Assembly: GCA_025465155.1 (NCBI GenBank)
Contig: JAODNJ010000394.1
Location: forward strand, 1 to 37,967
DNA: 37,967 nt
Source of the DNA: Frankiales bacterium
Lineage (GTDB): Bacteria; Actinomycetota; Actinomycetes; Mycobacteriales; Geodermatophilaceae
Direction: 5' to 3'
This document shows, in pieces, positions 6,423-31,950 of the stretch. Numbering within the stretch: the first letter of the stretch is position 1; each line of letters starts with the position of its first letter. Position numbers and translations under genes: made by a program. The notes below the pieces were generated by a model. It made no database searches and was not told where the DNA came from. It was given only the letters and a program-made list of their open reading frames with translations.

Positions 6423-6453
6423 GAGCGGCTCCGGGGCATCGGCATCGACGGAC

Positions 6454-6469
6454 TTGACGATCCTGTCAA
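6454..6469. promoter_or_regulatory. Operator A, TTGACR-N4-YGTCAA inverted repeat
   Basis: TTGACGATCCTGTCAA, extended by an outer C/G pair to an 18-bp repeat (6453-6470). It lies between the SDR stop (6514) and the start of the minus-strand synthetase (6422). Read on the minus strand it contains TTGACA, a perfect -35 box. It matches the repeat seen at five other intergenic places, so it is probably a TetR-type operator. The regulator is inferred, not shown. Confidence 0.7.
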
Positions 6470-6513
6470 GCGAGCGGCCGGCGGGGCAAGGAGCGCGGCT
6501 GCGGAAGGTCTGC

Positions 6514-7281
6514 TCAGAGCGGCCTGCGGACGTATCCGCCGTCGACGAGCAGGGTCTGCCCGGTGATGAACGAGGCCTCGGGCGAGCAGAGGAACAGGCC
6601 GGCGTCGACGAGGTCCGCCATGCGGCCCGGCCGCTTGATCATCTGCTGGGCGACGATCGCATCCTGGACGCCGGTCCGCGCCGGGTCGTTCGCCCAGACG
6701 ACGGCCGACTCGGAGTCCACCAGCCCGGGCGCGATGCCGTTGACCCGGATCCCGTCGGCGGCGAAGGCCTCCGCCAGGCTGACGGTCAACGAGTTGACGC
6801 CGATCTTGGACACGCCGTAGGCCCCGGCGCCGAGCCAGGCTGCCATCGACGACATGTTCACGACCGCCGCACCCTCCCGCCCCGCCATCGCCGGCCGACA
6901 GGCCGCCGAGCAGGCCAGCACCCCCAGCACGTTCACCTCGAGCACGTGCCGCCAGGCCGGCAGCGCCTCGAGGCTGAAGGGCAGCTGGGCGTGCTCGAGG
7001 TGGATGCCGGCGTTGTTGACCAGGACGTCGATGCCGCCGAACCTGTCGACCGCCGCGGCCACGGCGCTCTCCACCGCGGAGGCGTCGGCGACGTCCATCG
7101 CGAGGCCGATCGCCGTCGCCCCGTGCGCTCGCACGACCTCCACCACCCGGTCGGCGGGTTCGGCGTCCACGTCGGTCACGACGACGGCGGCCCCCTCGTC
7201 GGCGAAGCGGAGGGCGAACCGCCGCCCGATGCCTGCGCCGCTCCCCGTGATCAGCACGACCTTGTTCTCGAACCTGCGCAC
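6514..7281 (-). CDS. SDR family oxidoreductase (canonical)
   Basis: 255 residues of the classical short-chain dehydrogenase family. The cofactor motif TGSGAGIG is at 12-19 and NNAG at 89-92. The catalytic Ser is in NMSSMA (about 144-145), and Tyr155 and Lys159 form YGVSK. LLVDGG is near the C-terminus. TDVD at the end of beta-2 suggests NAD(H) rather than NADP(H). The GTG start follows GGAAGG. It is the only canonical SDR of the three in this run; the next two upstream lack the YxxxK pair. It likely oxidises a hydroxyl or reduces a ketone on a CoA-linked or cyclic intermediate. Confidence 0.92.
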   Translation of the reverse strand: MRRFENKVVLITGSGAGIGRRFALRFADEGAAVVVTDVDAEPADRVVEVVRAHGATAIGLAMDVADASAVESAVAAAVDRFGGIDVLVNNAGIHLEHAQLPFSLEALPAWRHVLEVNVLGVLACSAACRPAMAGREGAAVVNMSSMAAWLGAGAYGVSKIGVNSLTVSLAEAFAADGIRVNGIAPGLVDSESAVVWANDPARTGVQDAIVAQQMIKRPGRMADLVDAGLFLCSPEASFITGQTLLVDGGYVRRPL

Positions 7282-7309
7282 GGGGGGCCTTCCGGAGGGA
7301 GGGGGCGGG

Positions 7310-8137
7310 TCAGAGGTGGGCGCTGCCGCCGCCGACGACGGGGATGGACTGACCGGTGATCCGCCCGGCCTGCCGCGAGCAGAGGAAGGCGACGACTGCG
7401 GCCATCTCCTCCGGTTCGCCGAACCGGCGCAGGGGGATGCCCGCGGTGAACCCCGCGGTGACCTCCTCCACCGTGGAGCCGCGGTCCTCGGCCAGCCACC
7501 GCCAGTAGGCGCGGTTGCGCTCGGTGAGGATCGAGCCGGTGAGGAGGTTGTTGACGGTGATGCCGTCGTCCCGCAGCCGGGCGGCGAGCATCCGGTACAT
7601 GCCTGCGACCGCCGGGCGGACCGCGTTGGGCAGCACGTGCGGCAGGTGCGTGGCCGGCTCGCGGGCCACGCCGGAACCGATGTTGCAGATCCGGCCCCAC
7701 CGCTGGTCCCGCATGTCCGGGATCACCGCATCGGCCAGCGCCCAGGCGGCGACGAGCAGGTGGTCGAACTCGCGCCGGTACTCACCGGCGGGCATCGACG
7801 CGAAGGTCCCCGCGCCCGGGCCGCTGCCCTCCTTCCCGGCGTCGATCACGTGGCCGATCACGTTGCTGACGGCGATCCCGACCGGTCCGAACCACTCCCG
7901 TGCGACGTCGACGACGCGGCGCACCTGCTCCGGGTCGGTCATGTCGGCCGGCACCGCCTCCACCCGCCCGGGGGCGAGCGCCCCGAGCGCCGCGGCGGTC
8001 TCGTCCAGCGACGCCGGCGTCCGGGCGGTGACGACCACGGACGCGCCTTCCCGGACGAGTGCCGCCGCGATCGCCCGGCCGATGCCCCGGCTGCCGCCGG
8101 AGACGACCGCGACGCGGCCGGCCAGCCCGTAGTCCAT
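7310..8137 (-). CDS. SDR-like protein lacking the catalytic Tyr/Lys
   Basis: 275 residues with an SDR fold. The nucleotide motif SGGSRGIG is intact at 13-20 and Ser155 is present in NIGSGVAREP. By alignment to GITVN, however, the YxxxK site reads PNAVR (residues 170-174), so both catalytic Tyr and Lys are absent. As I recall, an SDR subgroup related to beta-ketoacyl reductases (often carrying KEP and NVARAG segments) naturally lacks the perfect tetrad, and this protein resembles it. It could bind nucleotide but use other chemistry, or act as a partner subunit. It sits 13 bp from the truncated SDR upstream and 28 bp before the canonical SDR downstream in one operon. Confidence 0.87.
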   Translation of the reverse strand: MDYGLAGRVAVVSGGSRGIGRAIAAALVREGASVVVTARTPASLDETAAALGALAPGRVEAVPADMTDPEQVRRVVDVAREWFGPVGIAVSNVIGHVIDAGKEGSGPGAGTFASMPAGEYRREFDHLLVAAWALADAVIPDMRDQRWGRICNIGSGVAREPATHLPHVLPNAVRPAVAGMYRMLAARLRDDGITVNNLLTGSILTERNRAYWRWLAEDRGSTVEEVTAGFTAGIPLRRFGEPEEMAAVVAFLCSRQAGRITGQSIPVVGGGSAHL

Positions 8138-8150
8138 CAGCGGCCGCTCA

Positions 8151-8702: not shown

Positions 8703-8708
8703 GGCGGC

Positions 8709-9964: not shown

Positions 9965-10029
9965 GGCGGCCACCTCCAGCCCTCGGGTGCCACCCACCTC
10001 TCGCGGGGCGTCAGGCTACAGCGGCAGGA

Positions 10030-12671: not shown

Positions 12672-14195
12672 TCACCTGAGCGGCGGACCCCAGTCCGAAC
12701 GGCTGCGCAGGGCGGCCTTGTCGACCTTGCCGCCCGGGTTGCGCGGCAGCGGCTCGGCCTGCACGTGTACGTACTGCGGCACCTTGAAGTCGGCGAGCAC
12801 GTCGCGGGCGAAGGCCACCAGCGTCCCGGGATCGAACTCCTCGCCCGGCCGCGGGACGACGACCGCGCCGACCTTCTGGCCCATCATCGGGTCGGGGACG
12901 CCCACGACGGCTATCTCGGCGACGGAGGGATACGCCGACAGTGCGGCCTCGACCTCGACGCTGTAGACCTTCTCGCCGCCACGGTTGATCAGGTCGGTGC
13001 GCCGGTCGAGCAGGTGCACCCGGCCCGCCTCGTCGGCCCGCACGAGGTCGCCGGTGTGCAGCCAGCCGCCGGCCAGGGCCGCCGCCGTCGCTTCGGGCCG
13101 CTGCCAGTACCCGCTCATGAGCTGGGGCCCGCGGACCAGCAGCTGGCCCACCCCGTCGTCGGCCCCGGGGCCGAGCACGGCCAGCTCGGTGGCGGCGACT
13201 GCGCTGCCGACCGAGTCGGCGTGGGGAAGGGCGTCGGCGTGCTCGAGACCGGTCACGCACGGCGCCTCGGTCAGCCCGTACCCGGGCCGCAGCTGCGCCG
13301 CCGGGAAGGCCCGCATCAGCGCCTCGACCTGGGCCGGCGGGGTCGGTGCGGCGCCGTAGACCAGGAGCCGGACCCCGGAGACGTCGAGGCCGGCGAACTC
13401 CGGATGCCGGAGGGCCTGCCAGTACATGGCGGGGACGCCGTTGAGGACGTCGATCCGTTCCTCGGCGATCGCCCGCACCCAGACACCCACCTCGAAGGCC
13501 GGCAGGATCGCCACCGAGCCGCCCGCGGCGAGAGCCGGGAGCCACTGCATGCCCGACGCCAGGATGTGGAACAGCGGGGCGGCGACGAGCGTCCGGGTGG
13601 CCTCGGCCGGCCCGAGGTGCAGCGCGCGCCGGCACTGCTCGGCCGCCGACAGCAACGCGCGGTGGGAGAGCATCGCGCCCTTGGGGCGGCCGGTCGTGCC
13701 GCTGGTGTAGAACATCGCGGCCAGGGACTCCGGGTCGGCGCCCTCGGCCCCGGCGGCGGTCGGCGGCCCGTCCGGCAGCCGCGCGCCGCTGTCGATGACG
13801 ACGGCGGCCCCACAGTCCTCGACCAGCGCGGCCACCTCGGCGTCGGTCAGCCGGGTGTTCAGCGGCACCGGCACCGCACCGGCGAGCACCGCGCCCAGGA
13901 AGGCCAGGCACCAGTCGGCGCCGTTGGGCAGCCGGAGCGCGACCCGGTCACCCGGGCGCGCGCCTGCGCCGCGCAGACCGCCGGCGACGCGGGCGGCACC
14001 GGCCCACAGGGCGGCGTGGTCCAGCCGGCGGCCGGTCCCGAGGTCGACGACGGCCTCGGCGCCGGGGCAGCGCTCGACGGTGGCCCGCACGAGGGTGGCC
14101 AGGTTGGGCGACAGGTTCCGGAAGCGGCGTCCGGCCGGGGTGGTGAGCTCGTCGGCGGTGGCGGCGGGACCGGCGACGGTGACGGGTGCGCTCAC
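12672..14195 (-). CDS. Acyl-CoA synthetase (AMP-forming)
   Basis: 507 residues. The P-loop YTSGTTGRPKG is at 163-173. GYGLTEAP, GDLVRADEAGRVHLLDRRTD, INRGGEKVYSVEVE and a terminal NPGGKVDKAAL Lys motif follow. The GTG start at 14195 overlaps the stop of the acyl-CoA dehydrogenase upstream by 4 bp (GTGA), which fixes the start; the same frame runs open much further upstream but that part is antisense shadow. It is the last gene of a four-gene operon with three dehydrogenases, so it probably activates the acid that they desaturate. Confidence 0.92.
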   Translation of the reverse strand: MSAPVTVAGPAATADELTTPAGRRFRNLSPNLATLVRATVERCPGAEAVVDLGTGRRLDHAALWAGAARVAGGLRGAGARPGDRVALRLPNGADWCLAFLGAVLAGAVPVPLNTRLTDAEVAALVEDCGAAVVIDSGARLPDGPPTAAGAEGADPESLAAMFYTSGTTGRPKGAMLSHRALLSAAEQCRRALHLGPAEATRTLVAAPLFHILASGMQWLPALAAGGSVAILPAFEVGVWVRAIAEERIDVLNGVPAMYWQALRHPEFAGLDVSGVRLLVYGAAPTPPAQVEALMRAFPAAQLRPGYGLTEAPCVTGLEHADALPHADSVGSAVAATELAVLGPGADDGVGQLLVRGPQLMSGYWQRPEATAAALAGGWLHTGDLVRADEAGRVHLLDRRTDLINRGGEKVYSVEVEAALSAYPSVAEIAVVGVPDPMMGQKVGAVVVPRPGEEFDPGTLVAFARDVLADFKVPQYVHVQAEPLPRNPGGKVDKAALRSRSDWGPPLR

Positions 14196-15316
14196 ACGCC
14201 CAGCCGGGCGAGCAACCGCTCGTGGTAGGCGGCCGGCCCGCCGAAGAGCAGCTGCGAGGACTTCGCGCGGCGGAAGTAGAGGTGCGCCGGGTGCTCCCAG
14301 GTGAAGCCGATGCCGCCGTGGACCTGGATGTTCTCCGCCGCCACGAACATGAACGCCTCGGAGCACACGACGTGCGCGACGGCGGCGGCGACGCCAGGGT
14401 CGGGCAACCCCTCGCCCCCGGCCAGCGCCGCGGCGGCCTCGGTGGCGGCGGCGTCGGCCAGCTGGACCCGCACGAACATGTCGGCGCACTTGTGCTTGAC
14501 GGCCTGGAACGACCCGATGGCGCGGCCGAACTGGACCCGCTCGCGGGCGTAGCCCACGGCGGCCTCGAGGCAGGCGCGCGCGGCGCCGACCTGCTCGGCG
14601 GCCAGCGCCGCGGTCGCGACGTCGAGCACCCGGTCGACGACCGCCCCGGCGGCTCCCGGGGCGCCGACGGGCACGGCGGCCGCGTCGGCGAACTCGAGCC
14701 TGGCGATCCGGCGGGTCGGGTCGAGGGTGCGCAGCGGGGTCCGGGTGAGCCCCGGGTCGTCGCCGGCGACGGCGAAGAGCCCCGGGCCGGCATCGGTGCC
14801 GGCGACGACGAGGACGACGTCTGCGGTCGCCCCGTCGACCACGAGTTGCTTCGTTCCGCTGAGGGTCCATCCCGAGCCGGCGCGGACGGCCGTGGTCGCC
14901 GGCCGGTCGGTCCGCCACGAGCCGTCGGCCTCGGCGACGGCAAGGGTGGCGGTGGTCGTGCCGGCCCCGATCGCCGGGAGATGGGTGGCCTGGGCGGCCT
15001 CGTCGCCGGACGCGGCGAGGGCGGTGGCCGCGAGGACGACGGTCGAGAAGTAGGGGCTCGGCAGCAGCGCGCGGCCCTGCTCCTCGAGGACGACCTGTAG
15101 TTCGGGGGCGCCGAAGCCGTCGCCGCCGTGGTCGGGCGGGAGCGTCAGCGACAGCAGCCCCAGCTCGTCGGCCATTCGCCGCCACACGGACTCGTCCCAA
15201 CCGCGCTCGTCGCCGATGAGGCGGCGCACCTGGTCCTCGCCGGAGGTGGTGGCCAGGAAGCTGCGGACCGAGGCGCGCAGGTCCTCCCGCTCGGCCTGGC
15301 TGGTGGTCTGGCTCAT
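14192..15316 (-). CDS. Acyl-CoA dehydrogenase (FadE-like), 374 aa
   Basis: Flavin-dependent acyl-CoA dehydrogenase family. The N-terminal helical domain has WRRMADELGLLSLTLPPDHGG; the middle sheet domain is degenerate (GTKQLVVDGATADVVLVV). The C-terminal domain has RVQFGRAIGSFQAVKHKCAD and QVHGGIGFTWEHPAHLYFRR. This pattern is typical of the actinobacterial steroid/side-chain FadE subunits that work as heteromers. The ATG overlaps the stop of the next dehydrogenase by 4 bp (ATGA). A non-identical partner at once upstream supports a heteromeric enzyme; this is inferred. Confidence 0.92.
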   Translation of the reverse strand: MSQTTSQAEREDLRASVRSFLATTSGEDQVRRLIGDERGWDESVWRRMADELGLLSLTLPPDHGGDGFGAPELQVVLEEQGRALLPSPYFSTVVLAATALAASGDEAAQATHLPAIGAGTTTATLAVAEADGSWRTDRPATTAVRAGSGWTLSGTKQLVVDGATADVVLVVAGTDAGPGLFAVAGDDPGLTRTPLRTLDPTRRIARLEFADAAAVPVGAPGAAGAVVDRVLDVATAALAAEQVGAARACLEAAVGYARERVQFGRAIGSFQAVKHKCADMFVRVQLADAAATEAAAALAGGEGLPDPGVAAAVAHVVCSEAFMFVAAENIQVHGGIGFTWEHPAHLYFRRAKSSQLLFGGPAAYHERLLARLGV

Positions 15317-16584
15317 GCCGTGCCTCCGGACCGTCGCAGCTCCCGGAACGGCGTGGTCGCGTCCGTGCCCGACTCCTTGGGCAGGCCGAGCACCCGCTCG
15401 GCGAGGATGTTCTTCATGATCTCCTCGGTGCCGCCGAGGATCCGCAGTGCCGGTGTGGACAGGAGCAGCTCGGTCCAGCTGAAGGTGCCCCACTCGCCGG
15501 TGTCGGCGAGCAGCCGCGGGCCGACCACCTCGGCGGCGAAATGGGCTCCGCGGGTGAGGTTCTGGCCGTACATCAGCTTGGACACCGAGGCCTCCGGGCC
15601 GGGCTGGCCACCCTCCCGCAGCCGCCGGACGGCCTGGTGGTTGAGGTATTCGGTCGCGGCCTGGTCGGCGTAGAGCTCGGCGAGCCGGCGGCGCGCGGCC
15701 GCGTCGCCGAGCCGGTCGTTGGCCTTCAGGAGCGCGGTCAGGAACGGCAGCGACACCGCCCGGCCGGCCGGACCGGCGCCCTCCCCGCCGACGCTGGCGC
15801 GCTCGTTCATCAGGGTGGTCAGCGCCACCCGCCAGCCGTCGTTCACCGCACCGATCCGGTGCTCGTCGGGCACGCGGACGTCGGTGAGGAAGACCTCGTT
15901 GAACTCCGCGCCGCCGCTCATCTGGCGCAGCGGGCGGACGTCCACGCCGGGAGCCGACATGTCGACCAGGAAGGCGGTGATGCCCTTGTGCTTGGGCCGG
16001 TCGGGGTCGGTCCGGCACAGCGCCAGGCCGATCTGGGCGTGGTGGGCGATCGACGTCCACACCTTCTGACCGTCGATCACCCACGCGTCGCCGTCGCGGA
16101 CCGCCCGGGTCGAGACGGCGGCCAGGTCGGAGCCGGCGGCGGGCTCGCTGAACAGCTGGCAGGCAATGACGTCGCCCGCGTACATGGCCGGCAGATAGCG
16201 CTCCCGGATCTGCTGCTGGGCGTGGGCGAGGATGGTCGGCCCGATCATGCCGAGCCCGATCAGCGAGAGCACCCCGGTGTCCGGGACCTCGTACTCGGCC
16301 TCGACCGAGTCGTAGACCATGTCGTGCACGGCGGTCAGGCCCCGGCCGCCGTACTCCGGCGGCCCCACGATCCAGCCGAGCCCGGCGTCGTAGCGGCGGC
16401 GCTGCCAGGCGCGGGCGGCGGCCACGTTCTCGGCCTCGACGTCGGGTGGGTCGGTGCTGAAGTAGGAGATCCGGTCGATCCCCGTTCCCCAGTCGACCTC
16501 GGCGTCGCCGTGCGGCCGGCGGGGCGCGTGGGCGTCGAGGAAGGAGCGCACCTCGGCCACGAAGTCATCCATCTCGATGGGCAC
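15313..16584 (-). CDS. Acyl-CoA dehydrogenase (FadE-like), 423 aa
   Basis: Full-length acyl-CoA dehydrogenase. CQLFSEPAAGSDLAAVSTRA is the flavin/substrate segment, QKVWTS the sheet-domain motif, and ILGGTEEIMKNILAERVLGLP the C-terminal FAD-contact motif. GTG at 16584 is chosen because GAGGAGAGG lies 6 bp before it; the ATG at 16572 is too far from any ribosome site. The stop overlaps the start of the 374-aa partner. An N-terminal insertion of about 30 residues (ISYFSTDPPDVEAENV) precedes the usual helical domain. It is probably the catalytic half of a heteromeric desaturase. Confidence 0.92.
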   Translation of the reverse strand: MPIEMDDFVAEVRSFLDAHAPRRPHGDAEVDWGTGIDRISYFSTDPPDVEAENVAAARAWQRRRYDAGLGWIVGPPEYGGRGLTAVHDMVYDSVEAEYEVPDTGVLSLIGLGMIGPTILAHAQQQIRERYLPAMYAGDVIACQLFSEPAAGSDLAAVSTRAVRDGDAWVIDGQKVWTSIAHHAQIGLALCRTDPDRPKHKGITAFLVDMSAPGVDVRPLRQMSGGAEFNEVFLTDVRVPDEHRIGAVNDGWRVALTTLMNERASVGGEGAGPAGRAVSLPFLTALLKANDRLGDAAARRRLAELYADQAATEYLNHQAVRRLREGGQPGPEASVSKLMYGQNLTRGAHFAAEVVGPRLLADTGEWGTFSWTELLLSTPALRILGGTEEIMKNILAERVLGLPKESGTDATTPFRELRRSGGTA

Positions 16585-16597
16585 GGGGACCCTCTCC

Positions 16598-17596: not shown

Positions 17597-17727
17597 GGCG
17601 GACTCCTCGTCGCTGACCGGGCGTCGTCGCCCGGTCGTGGGGTGCGGTCGTGGGGTGCGGTCGTCCGGTGCGGTCGTGGGGGGATCGGCCGCCGGTCGGG
17701 CGAAGCGAAGCTCCATGTCACCGTTGT

Positions 17728-17743
17728 TTGACGGACCTGTCAA
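17728..17743. promoter_or_regulatory. Operator B, TTGACR-N4-YGTCAA inverted repeat
   Basis: TTGACGGACCTGTCAA lies in the 258-bp gap between the divergent dehydrogenase operon (start 17596) and the thiolase operon (start 17855). Its left arm serves as the -35 box of the plus-strand promoter, and its right arm reads TTGACA on the minus strand, so one protein could silence both operons. Confidence 0.75.
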
Positions 17744-20223: not shown

Positions 20224-20225
20224 TC

Positions 20226-21830
20226 ATGACCACCACCGACCGGCGGGCGGCGGCCCGCTGGCCGTGGCTACTGCGCGCGGCCACGTTCACCGAGTTGGTG
20301 CAGCGGCGGGCCCGCGCGACCCCCGGCGCCCTGTTCCTGGTCGACGAGCAGGGAGTCGAGGTCACCTTCGCCGGTTTCGTGGACCGCGTGGACCGGGTCG
20401 CGACGGCGCTGGCTTCCGAAGGCATCGGCCCCGGCAGCCGGGTGGCCTGGCAGCTGCCCACCCGGATCGGCACCGTGCTGGTGATCGCGGCACTGCGCCG
20501 GCTGGGGGCCGTGCAGGCGCCGATCATCCCGCTGTACCGGGAGCGGGAGGTGCGGGCGGCGCTGGCCACCAGTGGCGCCGAGTTCTTCCTCGTCCCGGGG
20601 ACGTGGCGAGGCTTCGACTTCGCCGAGATGGCCGCGGCCGTCGCGGCGGGCGGCGGCCCCCAGCCGCGCGTGCTGGTCATCGGCCACGAACCCCCCGAGG
20701 CCGCGGAGCCACCCGCGGACGGCGCGCTGCCCCCCGAGCCGGCCGATCCCGACGAGGTCGCCTGGATCTACTTCACCTCCGGTTCGACCGGGGCACCGAA
20801 GGGCGCCCGGCACACCGACAGCACTCTCCTCGCGACCGGCACCGGCTTCGCCGGCAACGGCCGGCTGGGCGCGCGCGGCCCGGAGATGGGCGCCATGGGC
20901 TTCCCCGTGGCCCACGTCGGTGGCATCCAGTACCTGGTGTCGGCGCTGGCCGGAGGCTACGGACTCCTCCTGCTGGAGGCTTTCGTCCCCGATCAGGCGG
21001 TCGCCCTCTTCCGGCAGCACCGGGTGACCACCACCGGTGGAGCGCCGCCGTTCTACAGCGCGCTGGTCGCGGTGGCCCGGGCCACGCCCGGCGAGGAGCC
21101 GCTCCTCCCGGCGCTGCGCACGCTCAAGGGCGGCGGGGCGCCATGCCCGCCGGCGCTCTACCGGCAGGTCCGTGAGGTGCTCGGCGTGCAGCTCGCGCAC
21201 GACTACGGGATGACCGAGGTCCCGATGATCGCCGTCGCCGATCCGCTGGATCCCGACGACGTGCTCGCCGAGACCGACGGCCGGGTGCTGCCGGTCAACC
21301 GGGTCCGCATCGCCGGGCCGGACGGCGCGCCGGTGCCCGACGGTGAGACGGGCGAGATCCAGGTGAGCGGCGGCGGCGTGTGCCACGGCTACACCGACCC
21401 GGCCGAGACGGTCGCGGGCTTCACCGACGACGGGTGGTTCCGGACGGGCGATCTGGGCCGGCTGCGGCCGTCGGGCCACCTCGAGGTCGTCGGCCGGCTG
21501 AAGGACCTGATCATCCGCAAGGGCGAGAACATCGCCCCGCAGGAGATCGAGGAGCTGCTCGCCCAGCACCCGGCGGTCGCCGACGTCGCCGTCCTGGGTC
21601 TCCCGGACGCCGACCGCGGCGAGCGGGTGTGTGCCGTCGTCGTCCCCGCACCCGGGCGTGAGGTGCCGACGCTGGCCGAACTCACCGCCTGGCTGACCGA
21701 TGCCGGCCTCATGGTCCAGAAGCTGCCGGAACAGCTCGAGCTCGTCGACGAGCTGCCGCGGACCGGGCTAGCCAAGGTGGCCAAGAGCGAGCTCCGGCGC
21801 CGCCTCGACGCCGCTCCCCACCGAAGTTGA
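20226..21830 (+). CDS. Acyl-CoA synthetase (AMP-forming)
   Basis: 534 residues. The P-loop FTSGSTGAPKG is at 183-193, followed by HDYGMTEVP, GDLGRLRPSGHLEVVGRLKD, IIRKGENIAPQEIEE and a terminal RTGLAKVAKSEL. The final motif has LAK in place of the usual sGK, so Lys is kept. The ATG is only 2 bp after the thiolase stop, with a weak ribosome site, suggesting translational coupling. The stop codon overlaps operator C, so the synthetase reaches right up to the next promoter. The substrate is unknown. Confidence 0.93.
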   Translation: MTTTDRRAAARWPWLLRAATFTELVQRRARATPGALFLVDEQGVEVTFAGFVDRVDRVATALASEGIGPGSRVAWQLPTRIGTVLVIAALRRLGAVQAPIIPLYREREVRAALATSGAEFFLVPGTWRGFDFAEMAAAVAAGGGPQPRVLVIGHEPPEAAEPPADGALPPEPADPDEVAWIYFTSGSTGAPKGARHTDSTLLATGTGFAGNGRLGARGPEMGAMGFPVAHVGGIQYLVSALAGGYGLLLLEAFVPDQAVALFRQHRVTTTGGAPPFYSALVAVARATPGEEPLLPALRTLKGGGAPCPPALYRQVREVLGVQLAHDYGMTEVPMIAVADPLDPDDVLAETDGRVLPVNRVRIAGPDGAPVPDGETGEIQVSGGGVCHGYTDPAETVAGFTDDGWFRTGDLGRLRPSGHLEVVGRLKDLIIRKGENIAPQEIEELLAQHPAVADVAVLGLPDADRGERVCAVVVPAPGREVPTLAELTAWLTDAGLMVQKLPEQLELVDELPRTGLAKVAKSELRRRLDAAPHRS

Positions 21831-21842
21831 CGCTTTCGTCAG
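21827..21842. promoter_or_regulatory. Operator C, TTGACR-N4-YGTCAA inverted repeat
   Basis: TTGACGCTTTCGTCAG has one mismatch at the last base. It overlaps the synthetase stop codon and lies 60 bp before the amidohydrolase start. Confidence 0.6.
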
Positions 21843-23154: not shown

Positions 23155-23976
23155 TCAGGTGGTCTCGAGGATGGCCGCGAGGTAGGCGGTCACGGTGTCG
23201 ATCATGTCGTCGTCGTCCACCGGCAGCCGCTGCCCGCGGGACTGGTACCAGGAGCGGTCCAGCAGCGCCTGCGTCGCCAGGCCGAGCGCCTCGGGCGCGT
23301 CGGTGGGGACCTGCTGCCGGCTGCGCAGCGCGACGCCGAGCAGCCAGGCGACGCGCATCTGCAGCCGCCGGCTGGACGCCCGGAACTCTTCATCGGTCGG
23401 CGCGGACTGCGCCGAAGCGAGGATGAAGGCGCCGTGCTGGTCCAGGTGCTGGTAGTACTCGCGCACCCAGCCCTCGACGTCCTCGGTGCTGCAGGGCCGC
23501 GGGAGGTCGTCCCAGTGGCCGACGACCTGCAGCGTGTCGTGGTAGGCGGTCTCGCCCAGCACGGTGAAGACCTCGCGCTTGTCCTTGAAGTACGTGTAGA
23601 AGCCGGCCCGGGAGATCCCGCACGCGTCGGTGATGTTGTTGATCCGCGTTCCGGCGTAGCCGAGGTCGAGGAAGAGCCGCTGGGCCGCGTCCAGGATCGC
23701 CCGGCGGGTACGGGCCGCACGCCGGCCGAGCGCCCCCGCGGAGTCGTCGCCGTCGGGGGTCTCGCGGCCGGGCAGGCCGGCGGGCTCGATCGTCCCGGTG
23801 GCGAGCCCCGGTGTCTCGTCGATGGGGTTCCCCCGCTGCGGTCTGGATCCGGATCGGTGCTGTCGCGCCCACTGTACCGAGCGGCAGGCATTTCTGACGG
23901 ATACGTCAGCCCGACGGGTGAGCACCCACCGCGTGCCCCCACGCCTGTCCTGGTCGCGGCGGAACGTGGAGATCAC
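23155..23976 (-). CDS. TetR-family regulator, candidate master regulator of the cluster
   Basis: The TetR helix-turn-helix (RAILDAAQRLF to ITDACGISRAGFYTYFKDK) begins about 85 residues into the longest frame, an unusually long N-terminal arm. Start choice is uncertain: in-frame GTGs are at 23976 and 23925, and no ATG, GTG or TTG occurs between operator D (23894-23909) and the HTH. The true protein may therefore begin at a rare codon, or the operator may lie within the coding region. The C-terminal domain is helical, as in acyl-CoA-responsive TetR repressors. Its own operator copy and central position make it the best candidate to bind all the TTGACR-N4-YGTCAA sites. Confidence 0.88.
   Translation of the reverse strand: MISTFRRDQDRRGGTRWVLTRRADVSVRNACRSVQWARQHRSGSRPQRGNPIDETPGLATGTIEPAGLPGRETPDGDDSAGALGRRAARTRRAILDAAQRLFLDLGYAGTRINNITDACGISRAGFYTYFKDKREVFTVLGETAYHDTLQVVGHWDDLPRPCSTEDVEGWVREYYQHLDQHGAFILASAQSAPTDEEFRASSRRLQMRVAWLLGVALRSRQQVPTDAPEALGLATQALLDRSWYQSRGQRLPVDDDDMIDTVTAYLAAILETT
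23894..23909. promoter_or_regulatory. Operator D, inverted repeat beside the TetR gene
   Basis: CTGACGGATACGTCAG has perfect 5-bp arms and one change per arm from the consensus (C for T, G for A), so symmetry is kept. It lies about 97 bp before the divergent synthetase start (24006) and inside the longest frame of the TetR gene. It is consistent with autoregulation. Confidence 0.6.
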
Positions 23977-24005: not shown

Positions 24006-25454
24006 ATGACGGAGGCGGCCGGCACGTGGTCCGACCGCGTCACGGCCGTGCACGACGGCAGCCGGCGCACCGCGGTGGACGACGTCCGGGGTCCGGTCTC
24101 CGGCCGGGAGCTGCTCGGCCGGGCGAGCGCCGCCGCGGACCTGCTCGCGGGGATCGAGCTCCCCGAGGGAGGCGCCGTCCCGGCCCTGCTGACGACGAAC
24201 GCCGACGCCCTCGCCCTTCTGCTGGGTGGAGCGAGCGCCGGCCGGCCGCTGGCTCCTCTGGGGCCGCGGCTGACCGCCGCGGAGCTCGCCGGGCCGGTCC
24301 GCGCCTCGCGGTCGCCGGTGCTGGTCACCGAGCCGGCCTGGCGGGCGGTCGCGGAGCACGTCGCCGCGCTGACGGGGGTCCGGGTCCTACCGGTGCCTCC
24401 GCTGCCCGCGGCAGCGGCGCCGCCTCCGCCGCCGGCCGGCCCGGTCGCCCTGCTGCTGCACACCGCCGGCACCACGGGCGCCCCGCGGCCGGTCCCGATC
24501 ACGCAGCAGGTCCTCGCGGCCCGCACCGACGTGCTCGCACCGCTGACCGGGATGGGGCCCGACAGCCGGTTCGCCACCGGCTCGCCCGTGCACCACATCG
24601 GTGGCCTGGGCAACGCGCTCGTGGCACTCTCCCTCGGCGCCGCCCTCGTGCCGACCACCCGGTTCTCGGTGGAGTGGTGGCGGGGCCTGGCCACGTCGGG
24701 GGCGACGCACTGCCTGCTCGTCCCGTCGATGATCGAGATGCTGCTCGACGCGGGCGTCCTGGACGCGGTCGGCCTCCGCACGCTGATCTACGGCGCCGCG
24801 CCCATCACGCCGACGACGCTGCGGCGGGTGCTGGACAGGCTTCCCGGCGTCGGTCTCGTCAACCTGTTCGGCCAGACCGAGGGGAGCCCGATCACCTGTC
24901 TGACGCCGGAGGACCACGTGCAGGCCGCGGCCGGCGCGGCGCACCTGCTCGGCTCGGTGGGGCGGCCCGTGCCGGGGCTGACGCTGCGCCTCGCCGATCC
25001 CGACGACGGCGGAGTCGGGGAGGTCCTGGCCTCGGCCGCCCACCTCTCCGGCGCCGGGCCCGACGGCTGGCTGCACACCGGCGACCTGGGCGCGGTCGAC
25101 GGCGAGGGCTACCTGTTCCTGTCCGGCCGCCGGCACGACCTGGTGGTCCGCGGGGGCGAGAACGTGTACCCGGTCGAGATCGAGGACGTCCTGGCGCGGC
25201 ACCCGGGTGTGGCGGCCAGCGGTGTGGTCGGCGTCCCGGACCGGCGGCTGGGGGAGACGCTGGCCGCCTTCGTCGTCCCGGCCGACCCGGCCCGGCCGCC
25301 GGCAGAGGAGGAGCTGCGCGTCCACCTGCGCCGGCAGCTGTCCGGCTTCAAGGTGCCGGCCTACTGGTACTCCGTCGACCAGCTGCCACTCACCGGCGCG
25401 GGCAAGCTCTCCCGGCCGGAGTTGCGGCGCCGGCACGAGGCCGCGGGAGGCTGA
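24006..25454 (+). CDS. Acyl-CoA synthetase-like protein (short, unusual P-loop)
   Basis: 482 residues, the shortest of the five synthetases. The phosphate-binding loop reads HTAGTTGAPRPV (152-163), with Arg where the family has Lys. The adenylate region FGQTEG, the hinge GDLGAVDGEGYLFLSGRRHD, RGGENVYPVEIED and the terminal TGAGKLSR Lys motif are intact. The N-terminal domain is about 40 residues shorter than in the gene at 20226. It should still form an acyl-adenylate. It is divergent from the TetR gene with an AGGGGAGGAGGG ribosome site before the ATG. Confidence 0.9.
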   Translation: MTEAAGTWSDRVTAVHDGSRRTAVDDVRGPVSGRELLGRASAAADLLAGIELPEGGAVPALLTTNADALALLLGGASAGRPLAPLGPRLTAAELAGPVRASRSPVLVTEPAWRAVAEHVAALTGVRVLPVPPLPAAAAPPPPPAGPVALLLHTAGTTGAPRPVPITQQVLAARTDVLAPLTGMGPDSRFATGSPVHHIGGLGNALVALSLGAALVPTTRFSVEWWRGLATSGATHCLLVPSMIEMLLDAGVLDAVGLRTLIYGAAPITPTTLRRVLDRLPGVGLVNLFGQTEGSPITCLTPEDHVQAAAGAAHLLGSVGRPVPGLTLRLADPDDGGVGEVLASAAHLSGAGPDGWLHTGDLGAVDGEGYLFLSGRRHDLVVRGGENVYPVEIEDVLARHPGVAASGVVGVPDRRLGETLAAFVVPADPARPPAEEELRVHLRRQLSGFKVPAYWYSVDQLPLTGAGKLSRPELRRRHEAAGG

Positions 25455-26199: not shown

Positions 26200-27387
26200 T
26201 CATGCCTTCGACTCCTTGGGCAGCCCCAGGACGTGGTCGGCCAGGATCGTGCGCTGCACCTCGGCCGAGCCGCCGAGCATCGTCGCCGACCGGCTGTACC
26301 ACCAGTCGGCCCGCCACCGGACGTCGTCCGCTGCGCCCCCGAAGAGGAACTCGGCGCCGAGCAGGTCGCGGGCGAGGTCGTGCAGCCCGATCTCCAGGGT
26401 TGCCAGCAGCACCTTGTCGACACTGGCCTCCGGGCCCACCGTCTGGCCCGCGGCCAGCCGGCGGACGGTGTCGCCACTGCGGGCGCGCAACGCCACCAGG
26501 TCGGTGTAGACCTCGCCCAGCCGGGCCGCGGCGCCGTCCGGCAGCGCCCGGCCGTCCGACATCCGCGAGCGCAGCCGGTTCCTCAGCTCGCGGAGCCCGC
26601 GCAGCGCGTCGGCGGCGCTCAGCCAGGCGTACATGGCCCGCTCGAACTGGAGCAGGTACATCGCCACCGCCCAACCCTGGCCCTCCTCGCCGACCAGCCG
26701 GGTGGCGGGGACGACGGCGTCGTCGAAGAAGACCTCCGCGAGCTCGTCATCGCCGCTGGCCAGGGCGATGGGCCGCACGGAGACCCCGGGCGTGGCCACG
26801 TCGACCATGATCATCGACAGCCCGCGGTGCCGGGACTCGGCGGTGCCGGTGCGGACCAGGCAGACCAGGCGCGTCGCGGTGGCACCGTGGCTGGTCCAGA
26901 GCTTCTGTCCCGAGATGACGTAGGCGTCGCCCTCGCGGCGGGCGCGGCAGCGCAGGCCGGCGAGATCGCTGCCCGCCTCGGGCTCGGAGAAGCCCTGGCC
27001 CCACCACTCCTCGCCGCGCAGACAGGCCGGCAGGTGAGCCGCGGCCAGTGCCGGGGCGAACCGGACCATCGGGGGTCCCAGCGTTTCCAGCAGCAGGTGC
27101 GGCCCGGGAATCGGGAGATCGGCGGCGGCCAGCTCGTCGTAGAGGACGGCGCGGAAGCGCTCGTCGCCGCCGAGCCCGCCGGCCTCCTCGGGCCACCCGT
27201 GGCGGCTCCAGCCGTGCCGGTACAGCTCGCCCATCAGCCGGGCGTGGTCGGCCATGCGGTCCTCGGTGCCCGCGTGCGAAGCCGACCGCCATCGGTCCAG
27301 TTCCGGATCCGTGGCCAGGTAGGTCTGCAGCGCCTCGCGGTATGCGGAGAGGCCGCCGGCGTAGGAGGTGACCACCGGCGCCGTCAT
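26200..27387 (-). CDS. Acyl-CoA dehydrogenase (FadE-like), 395 aa
   Basis: Full-length acyl-CoA dehydrogenase. The N-terminus has YRHGWSRHGWPEEAGG, the flavin segment is GFSEPEAGSDLAGLRCRA, the sheet motif is GQKLWTSHGA, and the C-terminus has MLGGSAEVQRTILADHVLGLPKE. This full-domain pattern suggests a working desaturase. The ATG overlaps the stop of the enoyl-CoA hydratase by one base (TGATG). It is paired with a hydratase, so the two could carry out successive beta-oxidation steps. No heteromeric partner is adjacent, unlike the dehydrogenases at 14192-17596. Confidence 0.93.
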   Translation of the reverse strand: MTAPVVTSYAGGLSAYREALQTYLATDPELDRWRSASHAGTEDRMADHARLMGELYRHGWSRHGWPEEAGGLGGDERFRAVLYDELAAADLPIPGPHLLLETLGPPMVRFAPALAAAHLPACLRGEEWWGQGFSEPEAGSDLAGLRCRARREGDAYVISGQKLWTSHGATATRLVCLVRTGTAESRHRGLSMIMVDVATPGVSVRPIALASGDDELAEVFFDDAVVPATRLVGEEGQGWAVAMYLLQFERAMYAWLSAADALRGLRELRNRLRSRMSDGRALPDGAAARLGEVYTDLVALRARSGDTVRRLAAGQTVGPEASVDKVLLATLEIGLHDLARDLLGAEFLFGGAADDVRWRADWWYSRSATMLGGSAEVQRTILADHVLGLPKESKA

Positions 27388-28178
27388 CAGCGGGCTCCGG
27401 CCGCCCGCGCGCGGGACCGCTCCAGGAAGGTGCGCACGAGCTCCTGGTGCTCCGGGGTGTCGAAGGATGCGAACTCCTCGCCGAGCGCGTACTCCAGCAC
27501 GCCCGCGACCGCCCGCTTCATGTGCATGTTCAGTGCCCGCTTCGTGCTCTGCACCGCCTGCGGCGGCTGCGCGGCGAGCTTCTCGGCGAGCGCGAGGGCC
27601 TCGTCGAGCAGCTCGCCGTCGGGGACCACGCGGTTGGCCAGCCCCAGGGCGACGGCCTGGGTGGCCGGGATCCGCGCGCTGGTCAGCAGATACTCCTTGG
27701 CCTTGAGCATGCCCATGAGCAGCGGCCAGGTCGGGGCTCCGCCGTCGGCCGCCGTCAGACCGACCCCGACGTGCGGGTCGGCCATGAAGGCGCTCTCGGC
27801 GATCAGCACGATGTCGCTGCAGACGGCGAGGTTGCAGCCGAGCCCGACGGCGGCCCCGTTGACGGCGGCGACGACGGGGAGCGGGAAGTCGACCATCTCG
27901 TTGAGGAGCCGGCGGGCGCCGTCGATCTCCTTGCGGCGCAGTTCCCGGTCCTCCCACAGCTCGACGAAGTGCTCGAAGTCGCCCCCGGCGCTGAAGGCGC
28001 GCCCCGCACCGGTCAGGACGACGGCGCGGGCGCCGGGGTCCTCGGCGAGGTGCCGCCAGACCCGGACGAGGGCGTCGTGCAGCGCCTCGTTCGTGGCGTT
28101 GAGGACATCGGGCCGGTTGAGCGTCACGAGGCGGACCGCACCACGCGCCTCGACGAGCAGCTCGGGTGCGAAGGTCAC
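27387..28178 (-). CDS. Enoyl-CoA hydratase/isomerase family protein
   Basis: 263 residues of the crotonase fold. Oxyanion-hole segments are AFSAGGDF and AAVNGAAVGLGCNLAV. The active-site region FMADPHVGVGLTAADGG has Asp/His where classic hydratases carry Glu, so isomerase or another crotonase reaction is possible. The GTG follows AGGAGGAACC. It is the first gene of an operon with the dehydrogenase and thioesterase. Operator E lies 62 bp upstream and includes a -35-like TTGACG. Confidence 0.9.
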   Translation of the reverse strand: MTFAPELLVEARGAVRLVTLNRPDVLNATNEALHDALVRVWRHLAEDPGARAVVLTGAGRAFSAGGDFEHFVELWEDRELRRKEIDGARRLLNEMVDFPLPVVAAVNGAAVGLGCNLAVCSDIVLIAESAFMADPHVGVGLTAADGGAPTWPLLMGMLKAKEYLLTSARIPATQAVALGLANRVVPDGELLDEALALAEKLAAQPPQAVQSTKRALNMHMKRAVAGVLEYALGEEFASFDTPEHQELVRTFLERSRARAAGAR

Positions 28179-28239: not shown

Positions 28240-28255
28240 TTGACGCGAACGTCAA
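28240..28255. promoter_or_regulatory. Operator E, near-perfect TTGACR-N4-YGTCAA inverted repeat
   Basis: TTGACGCGAACGTCAA. With the flanking G/C it forms 7-bp arms GTTGACG and CGTCAAC around a 4-bp centre (28239-28256), the strongest palindrome of the set. On the minus strand TTGACG is followed after 18 bp by GATGAT, a plausible promoter for the hydratase operon. Confidence 0.75.
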
Positions 28256-29100: not shown

Positions 29101-30141
29101 TCAGACCCCGCCGGCCGCGGTCCGGCGCATGGCCGGCGCGGGGGAGGAGTCGGGGTAGAAGGTGTCCGACCACCGCCGGATCCTGCGGAACCCCGCGCCC
29201 TCCGACGTCGCCAGTGCCGGCGGATCGAGGTAGGTCTGGTGGTTCCAGATCTCGAGGTCCTGGGGGAGGGCCACCGCGATCTCGTTCAGCCGCCGGGAGC
29301 GGTCCTCCGCCGTGCCGGCCGGGAGGTCCTCCAGCCAGTACGTGCCGAAGACCTCGGTCCGGTCGTCGTCGACCGGCGTGGTCGAGATGAGCACCACCCG
29401 CCAGCCTTCCGGCGTCTGCTCGGCGTTGTAGGCGAAGCCGATGCCCACCCAGTGGATGGTGATCGTGTTGCGGCGGTCGTCGGGGCGGTCGACCCCGTCG
29501 GCCCAGCGGCGGCCGAACCCGGCGACGGTGTGCCAGGTGGAGTCGGTGACCTCTTCCTGGAGGATCACCGGGCTCATCGCCGTGCCGTGGACGAACTGGA
29601 AGTGCTCGCGGTCGACGGCGTTCTCGATCACGAACTGCGGGTGTACCTGCATGTCGCGGTAGTGCTGGACCCCGTCCGGCAGTGCCGGCTGGAAGGTCAG
29701 TCCGGTGATGTGGGGAGTGATCCCGGTGGCGAGGTCGGGCACCTCGAAGAAGGGTTCACGGCCGTGCACGTCATGCCAGAGGAAGAGCACCTCGTCGCGC
29801 TCGACCACCTGCCACGACCGGATCCGCCGGGCCCGGTTGGGGCGGTCCTGGTAGGGGATCGAGACGTTGCGCCCGTCCCCGTCCCAGGTCCATCCGTGGA
29901 ACGGGCACCGGATCCCGGTGTCGGTCACGCAGCCGCCGTGGGCCAGGTTGGCGCCGAGGTGCTGGCAGTACGCGTCCAGCACGTGCACCACGCCGGCCCG
30001 GTCACGCCACGCCACCAGATCCTGGCCGAAATAGCGCAGCGGCACCACGCCCTCGGGCGGAACGGTCGAGGACCAGCCGATCTGGAACCAGCCGGTCGGC
30101 TTCATGCTCAACGTCGTCCGCATCGGGGCCGCCTTCGTCAT
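29101..30141 (-). CDS. Rieske non-heme iron oxygenase, KshA-like
   Basis: 346 residues. The Rieske cluster ligands are Cys59/His61 (CQH) and Cys79/His82 (CPFH), 17 residues apart. The catalytic domain has NAVDREHFQFVHGT, giving the mononuclear iron His180 and His185. The N-terminus (PTGWFQIGW, VVPLRYFGQDLVAW, IPYQDRPNRARRIRSW) is strongly reminiscent of 3-ketosteroid 9-alpha-hydroxylase oxygenase. The ATG at 30141 is preceded by AGGAA; the longer frame to 30240 crosses the operator. No reductase or ferredoxin is in the window. A steroid or steroid-like substrate is suggested, not proved. Confidence 0.92.
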   Translation of the reverse strand: MTKAAPMRTTLSMKPTGWFQIGWSSTVPPEGVVPLRYFGQDLVAWRDRAGVVHVLDAYCQHLGANLAHGGCVTDTGIRCPFHGWTWDGDGRNVSIPYQDRPNRARRIRSWQVVERDEVLFLWHDVHGREPFFEVPDLATGITPHITGLTFQPALPDGVQHYRDMQVHPQFVIENAVDREHFQFVHGTAMSPVILQEEVTDSTWHTVAGFGRRWADGVDRPDDRRNTITIHWVGIGFAYNAEQTPEGWRVVLISTTPVDDDRTEVFGTYWLEDLPAGTAEDRSRRLNEIAVALPQDLEIWNHQTYLDPPALATSEGAGFRRIRRWSDTFYPDSSPAPAMRRTAAGGV

Positions 30142-30147
30142 GTGGTT

Positions 30148-30165
30148 GATTCCTACAGCGGAATC
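30148..30165. promoter_or_regulatory. Inverted repeat before the Rieske gene
   Basis: GATTCC-TACAGC-GGAATC has perfect 6-bp arms and lies 7 to 24 bp upstream of the ATG, overlapping the AGGAA ribosome site. It could be a second operator or a leader hairpin that hides the ribosome site. It is distinct in sequence from the TTGACR set. Confidence 0.4.
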
Positions 30166-30224
30166 TAGGAGCGCGTCGCGGGTGCGGGCAAGGCATGTTG
30201 CGGACCGACCCGTTGAGCTACGGT

Positions 30225-30240
30225 TTGACGATGCTGTCAA
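30225..30240. promoter_or_regulatory. Operator F, TTGACR-N4-YGTCAA inverted repeat
   Basis: TTGACGATGCTGTCAA lies between the divergent Rieske gene and the isochorismatase-like gene, and includes the ATG at 30231. On the minus strand it reads TTGACA, a good -35 for the Rieske gene. On the plus strand TACGGT (30219-30224) sits 6 bp before the ATG, consistent with leaderless transcription. Confidence 0.65.
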
Positions 30241-30896
30241 CCAGCACGGGGACCGGCCGCGCCCGGTCGTTGGCGCTGGATCCGGCCACGACGGCAGTGC
30301 TCGCCATCGAGTGCCAGCAGGGCGTGCTGGGGGAGGGCGCCTTCCTCGGCGACCTCGCGCGCGACGCGCGCGACGTGATCCCGTCGATCGCCCGGCTGCT
30401 CGACGCCGCGCGCGCGGCGGGCGTGCTCGTCGCGCATGCGACCTTCGACGGTCCGCTCGGCGCCCGGTACCGCGGTACCGCCCCGCTGTGGCGGGTCGCC
30501 GCGCCCCCGACCGACGACTGGCGACCCGGCGACCCGGGCACCCAGGTGCTGCCGGAGCTGCTCGGCGACGGGGACCTGGTGCTCGCCCGGCACCACGGGC
30601 TGTCGCCGACGGGGAAGACCGAGCTGCTCCCGGTGCTGCGGGGGCACGGCGTCCGCACGGTCGTCCTGGCGGGCGTCTCGCTCAACGTGGCGGTCCCCCT
30701 GACCGCGGCGGACGCCGAGGCCGAGGGCTTCCGGGTCGTGGTGGCCAGGGACGCGGTCGCCGGTACGCCCCGCGAGTACGGCGAGCTGGTGCTGACGCAC
30801 ACCATCGCGATGCTGGCGAAACTGGCCACCGTCGCGGAACTCGAGCAGGCCTGGCGGGGAGGGGCCGTGGCGGGTGCTGCGGGACCGGGGCGATGA
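30231..30896 (+). CDS. Isochorismatase-fold protein without the catalytic triad
   Basis: 221 residues from the ATG at 30231 (an ATG at 30195 is also possible). The fold pattern is clear: TAVLAIECQQGVL at the first strand, VVLAGVSLNVAV at the active-site strand, and VVVARDAVAG after it. The usual Asp-Lys-Cys triad is replaced by about Glu27, Arg120 and Ala154. I recall similar Cys-less members in actinobacterial catabolic clusters, so this may be a subfamily trait. It overlaps the VOC gene by 4 bp (ATGA). Function is unknown; a binding role or different chemistry is possible. Confidence 0.82.
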   Translation: MLSTSTGTGRARSLALDPATTAVLAIECQQGVLGEGAFLGDLARDARDVIPSIARLLDAARAAGVLVAHATFDGPLGARYRGTAPLWRVAAPPTDDWRPGDPGTQVLPELLGDGDLVLARHHGLSPTGKTELLPVLRGHGVRTVVLAGVSLNVAVPLTAADAEAEGFRVVVARDAVAGTPREYGELVLTHTIAMLAKLATVAELEQAWRGGAVAGAAGPGR

Positions 30897-31843
30897 GCGC
30901 CGACGTCCACCCGGCGGGGGAGGAGGCGCCGGCCGCCCCGCATCACGCGCACGCCGTGATGCACTGCAACCTCAACACCGTCGACGTCGAGCGGGCCGCG
31001 GCGTTCTACATGGCGGTCCTCGACGTCGAGCCCCGGATGCGCTCGGTGAGCACCGACGGCGACTCGACCTTCATGGGGCTGGGCACCTCGACCGCGAGCG
31101 TCACGACCTTCCTCTACGACCGGCGCGGCCCGCGCGCGGCGCCGGCGCTCGAGCTGGTCGGCTGGTCGAGGCCCGCCACCGAACCGGCGGGTCCGGACAC
31201 GCTGCCGCCCACCTTCACCGCCGTGGGGTTCCGGGTCGCCGACCTGCGCCCGGTGGTCGCCCGGCTCGCCGCGATCGGCGCGCCGGTGGAACGGGTCGAG
31301 CACGGCGCGACCGTTCGCGGGTCGGTGTGGCCGGCGGTCCGGACCGTCGACCCCGACGGTGTTCCGGTCGAGGTGATCGAGGTGCCGCCGGCGGCGGACG
31401 ACCCGCCGGCGGCCGCCTTCTCGCACGAGCGCGTGCGCAGCACCGACCTGGACCGGACGGCGGACTGGTTCGGCGCGCTCGGCTGGACCGTGCGCGCCCG
31501 CGGGACGGCGGAAGGAGGGGGCGGGCTCTCGCTGGTCCTGCCCGAGGACCCGACCTTCTCCCTCGAGTTGCGCCGCCTGCCGCCCCCGTCGGGGGTGCCG
31601 CGCCGGGCGAACACCCAGGGCCTGTACCGCATGGCGCTGGCCGTCGAGGACGTGGCCGCGGCGCACCGCTCGCTCGTCGCCGGATCGGCCGTCGGCGACG
31701 TGCCCGAACCGGAGTTCGTCCCGATGCCGGACACACCCACCGGTGGGTTCACCGTGATGTTCCTGGACGGTCCGGACGGCGCGGTCGTGGAGCTCGTCAG
31801 CCGGCCGCGCTCCGCGGTCCGCCGCCCCCGCGAGCCCCGCTGA
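30893..31843 (+). CDS. Two-domain VOC (glyoxalase/extradiol dioxygenase-like) protein
   Basis: 316 residues with two vicinal-oxygen-chelate modules. The first (about 20-165) starts with HAVMHCNLNTVDVERAAAFY and ends VDPDGVPVEVIEVP; the second (about 175-310) starts FSHERVRSTDLDRTADWF and ends FLDGPDGAVVELVSRP. Each has the beta-alpha-beta-beta-beta pattern and a terminal Glu in the ExxE-like strand. VOC enzymes bind a metal and act as isomerases, lyases or ring-cleaving dioxygenases. The ATG overlaps the preceding stop (ATGA). A role in ring opening or isomerisation fits the context but is not demonstrated. Confidence 0.87.
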   Translation: MSADVHPAGEEAPAAPHHAHAVMHCNLNTVDVERAAAFYMAVLDVEPRMRSVSTDGDSTFMGLGTSTASVTTFLYDRRGPRAAPALELVGWSRPATEPAGPDTLPPTFTAVGFRVADLRPVVARLAAIGAPVERVEHGATVRGSVWPAVRTVDPDGVPVEVIEVPPAADDPPAAAFSHERVRSTDLDRTADWFGALGWTVRARGTAEGGGGLSLVLPEDPTFSLELRRLPPPSGVPRRANTQGLYRMALAVEDVAAAHRSLVAGSAVGDVPEPEFVPMPDTPTGGFTVMFLDGPDGAVVELVSRPRSAVRRPREPR

Positions 31844-31852
31844 TGACGTCGC

Positions 31853-31868
31853 CTGACACATTCATCAA
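31853..31868. promoter_or_regulatory. Weak candidate operator H
   Basis: CTGACACATTCATCAA fits TTGACR-N4-YGTCAA at 10 of 12 fixed positions. It starts 9 bp after the VOC stop and lies 66 bp before the stronger site G. Two mismatches make this a low-confidence site. Confidence 0.3.
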
Positions 31869-31934
31869 GGTCGCCTGCCGCTCATCACGTGGGACCCGGG
31901 ACCGGGCCGGTTGCCGGCGCTTCCTCCGGGCCAC

Positions 31935-31950
31935 TTGACGGTTTCGTTGA
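31935..31950. promoter_or_regulatory. Candidate operator G
   Basis: TTGACGGTTTCGTTGA has an intact left arm and a right arm with two changes. It starts just before, and overlaps, a perfect TTGACA -35 box (31947-31952) upstream of the DUF35/Ltp2 operon, which matches the placement of the stronger sites over promoters. Confidence 0.45.

Follow-up and report, generated by a model that had tools for sequence, protein, structure and literature searches.

Dyad copies in a catabolic contig

We analysed the whole of contig C431 (JAODNJ010000394.1; 37,967 bp, 73.7% GC; hereafter the window), which makes up 0.7% of the 5.23-Mb, 612-contig draft genome of a Frankiales bacterium (GCA_025465155.1). Scattered among genes for CoA-thioester catabolism, it carries recurrent copies of a 16-bp inverted repeat, TTGACR-N4-YGTCAA, together with the gene of a TetR-family regulator (23155..23823, minus strand, start uncertain), the proposed repressor. 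An original prediction made from this DNA had tied the copies into one regulon; a pattern rescan of the window recovered the dyad at all seven coordinates then given, with R6 and Y11 kept in every copy. Exact matches to TTGACRNNNNYGTCAA lie at 6454, 17728, 28240 and 30225; the copy at 21827 has one mismatch (last base G), and that at 23894 has two, being itself a perfect CTGACG-N4-CGTCAG dyad. The seventh copy, at 31935 (TTGACGGTTTCGTTGA), described at the time as weaker, is present, with two mismatches and a broken second arm, but as an operator it is doubtful. A further intergenic two-mismatch copy, at 31853, was absent from that list.

The pattern scan gives these copies the following positions among the genes. 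An exact predicted operator, TTGACGATCCTGTCAA (6454..6469), stands 31 bp before the acyl-CoA synthetase gene fadD_A (4860..6422, minus strand). A second (17728..17743) lies between fadD_B with three acyl-CoA dehydrogenase genes (ACAD1-3; 12672..17650, minus strand, inner gene limits approximate), a group transcribed from 17.65 down to 12.67 kb, and a plus-strand operon for an OB-fold protein, a thiolase-like protein and the acyl-CoA synthetase fadD_C (17858..21830). The single-mismatch copy (21827..21842) is 59 bp before an amidohydrolase gene (PF04909; 21902..23122, plus strand), and the two-mismatch copy CTGACGGATACGTCAG (23894..23909) separates the TetR gene from the divergent acyl-CoA synthetase gene fadD_D (24006..25454, plus strand). 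A third exact copy (28240..28255) is found 61 bp before the enoyl-CoA hydratase gene (27387-28178), which forms with ACAD4 (26200 to about 27300) the minus-strand group 26200..28178. The fourth (30225..30240) lies between the gene of a Rieske oxygenase with a KshA-type C-terminal domain (29101..30141, minus strand) and that of an isochorismatase-like hydrolase (30231..30896, plus strand), whose start codon falls within the operator and which is followed by a gene for a VOC/glyoxalase-superfamily protein (30896..31843, plus strand, start approximate). Of the two possible weak operators, each with two mismatches, one is intergenic (31853..31868) and the other (31935..31950), beside the promoter-like pair TTGACA-N17-TAGCGT, precedes the second OB-fold and thiolase-like genes, which together with a CoA-transferase-like gene span 32048..34846 on the plus strand.

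By the approximate gene limits used, about 9% of the window is intergenic; four of the six clear copies lie wholly in gaps and two touch gene ends, one sharing 4 bases with the end of the ligase gene before it and the other 10 bases with the start of the isochorismatase-like gene. The earlier statement that all copies lie upstream of genes depends on start codons, notably that of the TetR gene: with a start at GTG 23925 or 23976, the 23894 copy would fall inside it. Spacers of 0 to 20 bases were tested between TTGAC and GTCAA, and exact matches in the window occur with six only. With up to two mismatches, the window holds 13 matches, whereas 100 dinucleotide shuffles gave 1.51 +/- 1.28 and never more than 5; five of the 13 are wholly coding (7016, 19277, 22602, 27859 and 36187) and are probably background.

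A scan of the draft genome, proposed together with the original prediction, found the exact motif confined to the cluster contig: all four matches lie in the window, and the reversed control pattern has none. The pattern TGACRNNNNYGTCA has 27 matches genome-wide, six of them in the window, against five for the reversed control. With up to one mismatch, the 21 matches (five in the window) equal the 21 of the control; single-mismatch matches elsewhere are therefore mostly noise, only strong copies and their position count, and such matches were rejected as regulon members in general. Among the contigs of this genome examined for members, only C585 has a site placed upstream of a catabolic operon: the near-match at C585:15611 lies 43 bp upstream of a short-chain dehydrogenase/reductase (SDR) gene, followed by a hydratase gene and a DUF2889 gene, behind a thiolase gene. 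Since orthologs of this SDR (56-61% identical, seven regions), hydratase (72-78%, four regions) and thiolase (52-61%, 12 regions) sit in the cluster regions of other genera, the predicted regulon probably extends over two contigs or more, C431 and C585 among them. Sites on C608, C535, C592, C425, C147, C22, C304, C99 and C161 were judged by position, with a Pfam scan of one protein each from C608 and C592, and are not claimed as members.

Co-conservation of the dyad with the TetR gene

The TetR protein encoded at 23155 has orthologs with 47-71% identity in Frankia, Nocardia, Pseudonocardia, Williamsia, Gordonia, Janibacter, Knoellia, Tomitella and Mycobacterium. At E 1e-18, 10 of a further 393 genomes sampled from the class proved to hold a close relative; the GTDB collection gave 76 named loci, which derive from 80 kept of 99 matches. 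These 76 loci hold 78 exact dyads against four reversed-control dyads in 1.36 Mb, and 59 of them have a site with one mismatch or none no more than 350 bp upstream of the TetR match. When the 76 upstream regions were reduced to 44 by 12-mer overlap, thereby removing near-duplicates, the site remained in 33, against 0.4% of order-1 Markov resamples. A motif-blind count of dyads with arms of four bases and gaps of 0 to 12 ranked TGAC-N6-GTCA first (32 of the 44 regions, 0.5 expected), with a score of 101.6 against at most 12.0 in three resampled sets.

The sites also gather around the TetR gene. Ten TetR-bearing genomes contain 46 exact sites against three control sites. In each of the Frankia genomes G149 and G344, all five exact sites fall within about 61 kb, with two of the three TetR paralogs inside this stretch and the third 25 to 50 kb from it; the three sites of P. 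parietis lie within 22 kb and the three of Janibacter HTCC2649 within 34 kb, both with the TetR gene inside, and all exact sites of a Marmoricola (3/3) and a Nocardioides (5/5) metagenome-assembled genome are on the TetR contig. Frankia has up to three such paralogs within about 85 to 110 kb (G149:C1 3779221, 3788764, 3863729), and those aligned have the ACGISRAGFYTYF helix in common, possibly for one operator. In 18 further genomes, 73 exact sites were counted against 38 for the control.

In the 111 other genomes of the family, TetR matches are distant only (nine genomes, best E 3.3e-13, at most 35% identity), and these relatives without a close TetR show 30 exact dyads (in 28 genomes) against 26 for the reversed control, which is background. 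The lack of a close TetR among the family relatives suggests horizontal gain. In one family genome (G084:C82:31200), an exact dyad is identical in its 16 bases to the site at 6454. A distant TetR match (30% identity, 153 residues) has another exact dyad (G011:C7:985727-985742) about 90 bp upstream, so that a wider TetR group may share the operator.

Conservation extends to the operons. The window proteins were compared with 16 further regions that had been picked for their TetR orthologs and known sites; matches over E 1e-20, below 43% identity or with less than half coverage were left out. Counting the window, a site with at most one mismatch is found no more than 300 bp from the 5' end of the gene match before the amidohydrolase in all 11 regions holding that gene, before the enoyl-CoA hydratase in 10 of 11 (the hydratase of an M. 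branderi plasmid is without one) and before the Rieske gene in five of six (that of Marmoricola is without one). The site thus stands upstream of the same operons, as well as of the TetR gene, in other genera. The amidohydrolase is also the window gene most often found with this TetR (51 of the 76 loci), and in 44 of the 76 the two genes diverge around a single site-bearing gap, an arrangement also present in the M. branderi annotation. In the window they are not divergent, and each has its own copy (23894 and 21827), as would be expected if one site serves both.

Confinement within the genome and co-conservation with the TetR gene and the operons support the one-regulon reading of the original prediction. 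We put at roughly 90% the probability that the dyad is the operator of the TetR protein encoded at 23155 to about 23823 (minus strand), and we regard the system as a well-bounded example of a familiar kind, a catabolic regulon under putative TetR control. Several observations weigh against this assignment. A site with at most one mismatch is missing upstream of the TetR match in 17 of the 76 loci, and the copy upstream of the window's own TetR gene carries two mismatches. Two of the ten TetR-bearing genomes, G371 and G411, hold no exact site, and in six of the 18 further genomes the exact count does not exceed the control (exact/control: G508 8/8, G509 3/6, G515 3/4, G517 2/2, G518 1/3, G519 3/3). 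The locus counts, like the strand-site counts of promoter spacing given below, take relatives as independent. Finally, homologs of an FCD-type GntR regulator encoded in the window (36712-37500) recur in seven of the 16 other cluster regions and in 12 of the 76 TetR loci.

That this GntR protein, and not the TetR, binds the dyad is nevertheless very improbable. As many as 51 of the 59 loci with a TetR-upstream site have no GntR homolog within the locus (at most about +/-10 kb; this homolog search left out matches below 42% identity or with less than half coverage), no site lies upstream of the GntR gene in the window, and the operators of FCD-GntR regulators are typically of the TNGT-N3-ACNA type. 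The GntR/FCD protein may instead be a second regulator of the pathway.

Slightly less credible still is that the dyad belongs to the second TetR of the window (TetR2, 9335-9997) or to an ortholog of Rv0767c. TetR2 adjoins a mycofactocin SDR gene and a Rv0768-like aldehyde dehydrogenase gene, and in one phytosterol-grown Mycobacterium a "motif X", a palindrome linked to a TetR and to steroid genes, was assigned to the Rv0767c ortholog G155_05115 (PMC6593523). Against this, a TetR2 homolog is found in none of the 76 loci, and the gap between TetR2 and the SDR gene in the window has no site. In three Mycobacterium genomes, moreover, the TetR beside the Rv0768-type dehydrogenase differs in its helix-turn-helix (HTH) sequence and has no match to either window TetR at E 1e-3, and its upstream gap is without a site at up to two mismatches; the Rv0767c ortholog was assigned here by gene order, and the comparison with this system covered the protein and its upstream gap. 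TetR2 and the GntR protein were consequently rejected as the binder on the locus-wise homolog counts, and identity with Rv0767c on the different protein and the dyad-less upstream gap in all three genomes.

Promoter geometry and putative mode of repression

The TetR protein encoded at 23155, the preferred candidate binder, carries a TetR_N HTH domain (PF00440; 45.3 bits against a cut-off of 24), and AlphaFold gives an all-helical, two-domain TetR fold (mean predicted local distance difference test score 82.3, residues 1-43 below 50). The closest structures by VIA include chains of EthR, DesT and FasR (Z about 16); DesT is listed with acyl-CoA bound, which fits an acyl-type effector and does not demonstrate one. 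None of the 15 named TetR equivalog families of NCBIfam that matched at E 0.001 reached its cut-off, the best scoring 42.6 where 150 is required. Across 32 aligned sequences (31 of the 76 named loci and the window protein), the HTH residues S88-R-A-G-F-Y93, Y95 and F96 are invariant. There is no ATG between the 23894 operator and the HTH, and an ATC at 23823 (minus strand), after GGGGGA, aligns with the ATG followed by Asp-Asp or Asp-Glu of some Frankia orthologs. The start is uncertain: it may be this non-canonical ATC, CTG 23775 or the upstream GTG 23925 or 23976, or a sequence error may be involved. Elsewhere in the genome (C177:43555-51931) are two distant TetR paralogs, relatives in frames of 458-459 amino acids; the frame scanned contains TetR_N twice, in the manner of the Mce3R-like double TetRs.

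At least three copies had been said to overlap a -35 box, and a -10-like hexamer does stand 17 or 18 bases after TTGACG at 17728 (plus strand), 21827 (plus) and 28240 (minus). The corresponding pairs are TTGACG-N17-TAGGGT towards the plus-strand operon, TTGACG-N18-TAGCTT towards the amidohydrolase and TTGACG-N18-GATGAT towards the enoyl-CoA hydratase; for the 31935 copy, a better -35 is offered by the TTGACA that follows (31947-31952), 17 bases before TAGCGT. Over 40 exact sites (80 strand-sites), TANNNT follows TTGACR by 17 or 18 bases in 19 strand-sites, and no other spacing between 10 and 26 occurs more than once, save spacing 11, with six. A wider set of 180 strand-sites gives 35 at 17/18 and 16 at 11, with further peaks 15 bases before the dyad (13), 4 to 6 bases before it (9, 7 and 9) and inside it at offset 7 (14); the fixed T's of the dyad account in part for those at offsets -5, -4 and 7, and both sets include related genomes. 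These peaks suggest that one arm often coincides with the -35 box, or that the dyad abuts the -10. That the dyads are only strong promoters, with TTGAC as the -35 consensus and the second arm due to chance or to a divergent promoter, would fit the -35 spacing of TTGACR from a -10-like box in many copies but is scarcely tenable, since one arm suffices for a promoter, yet both arms, the six-base gap and R6/Y11 are kept, the dyad tops the de novo count, and its exact form does not occur elsewhere in the genome. Outside the window, 94 distinct exact sites show a preference for A and C in the flank ahead of TTGAC and mostly A/T at the two central positions, preferences that stem from sites already selected by pattern.

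A third position is seen at the isochorismatase-like gene, where the ATG (30231) is in the centre of the 30225 operator and a TACGGT -10-like box lies directly before the dyad. The ATG coincides with dyad positions 7-9 in four of seven isochorismatase-like sites (the window, Frankia, N. miyunensis and N. nova), and is elsewhere in the other three (Williamsia, P. parietis and Marmoricola). TANNNT ends directly before the dyad in nine strand-sites, eight of which have an ATG at positions 7-9. Such an architecture suggests a leaderless mRNA with the operator lying over the first codons.

We infer binding, repression and release as follows. A TetR dimer would bind the 16-bp palindrome (about 20 bp with the preferred flanks) before the CoA-thioester catabolic operons and also, at 23894, before its own gene, resulting in autoregulation. 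Once bound, it would block RNA polymerase, either where the TTGACR arm is the -35 box, or where the dyad abuts the -10, or by covering the start site, namely that of the apparently leaderless gene. An intermediate of the pathway, probably an acyl-CoA or a free acid, would then bind the C-terminal domain and free the repressor from DNA.

Gene content was assessed by Pfam and NCBIfam profile scans. Besides the genes listed above, with enoyl-CoA hydratases in the plural, the window holds two OB-fold/thiolase pairs of the ChsH2/lipid-transfer type and several SDRs, one of them of the mycofactocin type (above the NCBIfam cut-off); the Rv0768-like aldehyde dehydrogenase falls below the cut-off of that model. 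This content would suit the breakdown, by way of CoA thioesters, of a bulky and probably cyclic acid, perhaps a terpenoid- or steroid-like one. No Pfam or NCBIfam model for the window proteins scanned names a substrate, and the scanned ligases, thiolase and Rieske protein have no hit above cut-off among the best 25 NCBIfam models per protein, a scan that covered the set other than fadD_B and thiolase1. We see about an even chance that the cluster represents an actinobacterial pathway for some cyclic compound, undescribed and moving by horizontal transfer, under its own TetR with a portable operator that occupies three promoter positions, including a leaderless start codon with the repressor on its first codons. 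Frankia, Nocardia, Pseudonocardia, Janibacter and mycobacteria have part of a degradation pathway in common, for which the analysis provides a predicted operator together with a regulator and a list of genes. With the site, scattered parts of the pathway can be gathered, as for contig C585, and the TetR protein would be a ready sensor for finding the inducer.

Comparison with known regulators

We found no paper on this regulator or motif in open-licence PMC text; Rv0767c and both dyad arms do not occur in a paper on the DNA-binding network of M. tuberculosis, and the excerpted text of the Rhodococcus ruber genome paper has nothing on the motif. Like KstR and KstR2, the protein would be a TetR repressor of a large catabolic regulon. 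The operators of these two regulators probably differ from the dyad. In so far as compared here, with the Rv0767c ortholog excluded and different palindromes published for BkaR and EdcR, the dyad is no known steroid-regulator motif, in line with the earlier remark that it was not recognised as that of KstR, KstR2 or FadR. The fold of KstR2 matches that of the window TetR (Z 14.7, 14% identity), with no close sequence relationship seen, and its effector is HIP-CoA (PMC6593523). In contrast to Mce3R, a double-TetR polypeptide with a 25-bp asymmetric site (PMC11667970), the protein has a single TetR domain and a palindromic site. EdcR, the estradiol-responsive TetR of Caenibius, likewise represses a catabolic cluster for ring compounds, and the authors who described it suggest autoregulation, but its operator, TnnCnnTACnAnTnGTAnnGnnA, which overlaps the -10, is another palindrome (PMC8700777).

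A fuller parallel is offered by BkaR (Rv2506 / MSMEG_4718), a mycobacterial TetR repressor of branched-chain keto-acid genes, which binds as a dimer to the operator core GTTA-N-T-N4-A-N-TAAC, regulates itself, and acts on a divergent catabolic operon as well as on a few distant targets (PMC3920632). The system described here has in common with it a TetR protein, a 16-bp palindrome with an N4 centre, a proposed dimer, predicted autoregulation, a divergent operon and remote targets. Its operator is nonetheless TTGACR-N4-YGTCAA, the six sites, compared by eye, do not match the BkaR core, and the likeness of the proteins is at the fold level only (6yj2, Z 15.4, 18% identity). The Rv0767c system, too, pairs a TetR with a palindrome that lies near the gene of that TetR and near dehydrogenase and P450 operons (PMC6593523), and its motif X is the closest published idea to this operator; the Rv0767c protein is nonetheless a different one in HTH and sequence, and its upstream gap has no dyad in three genomes.

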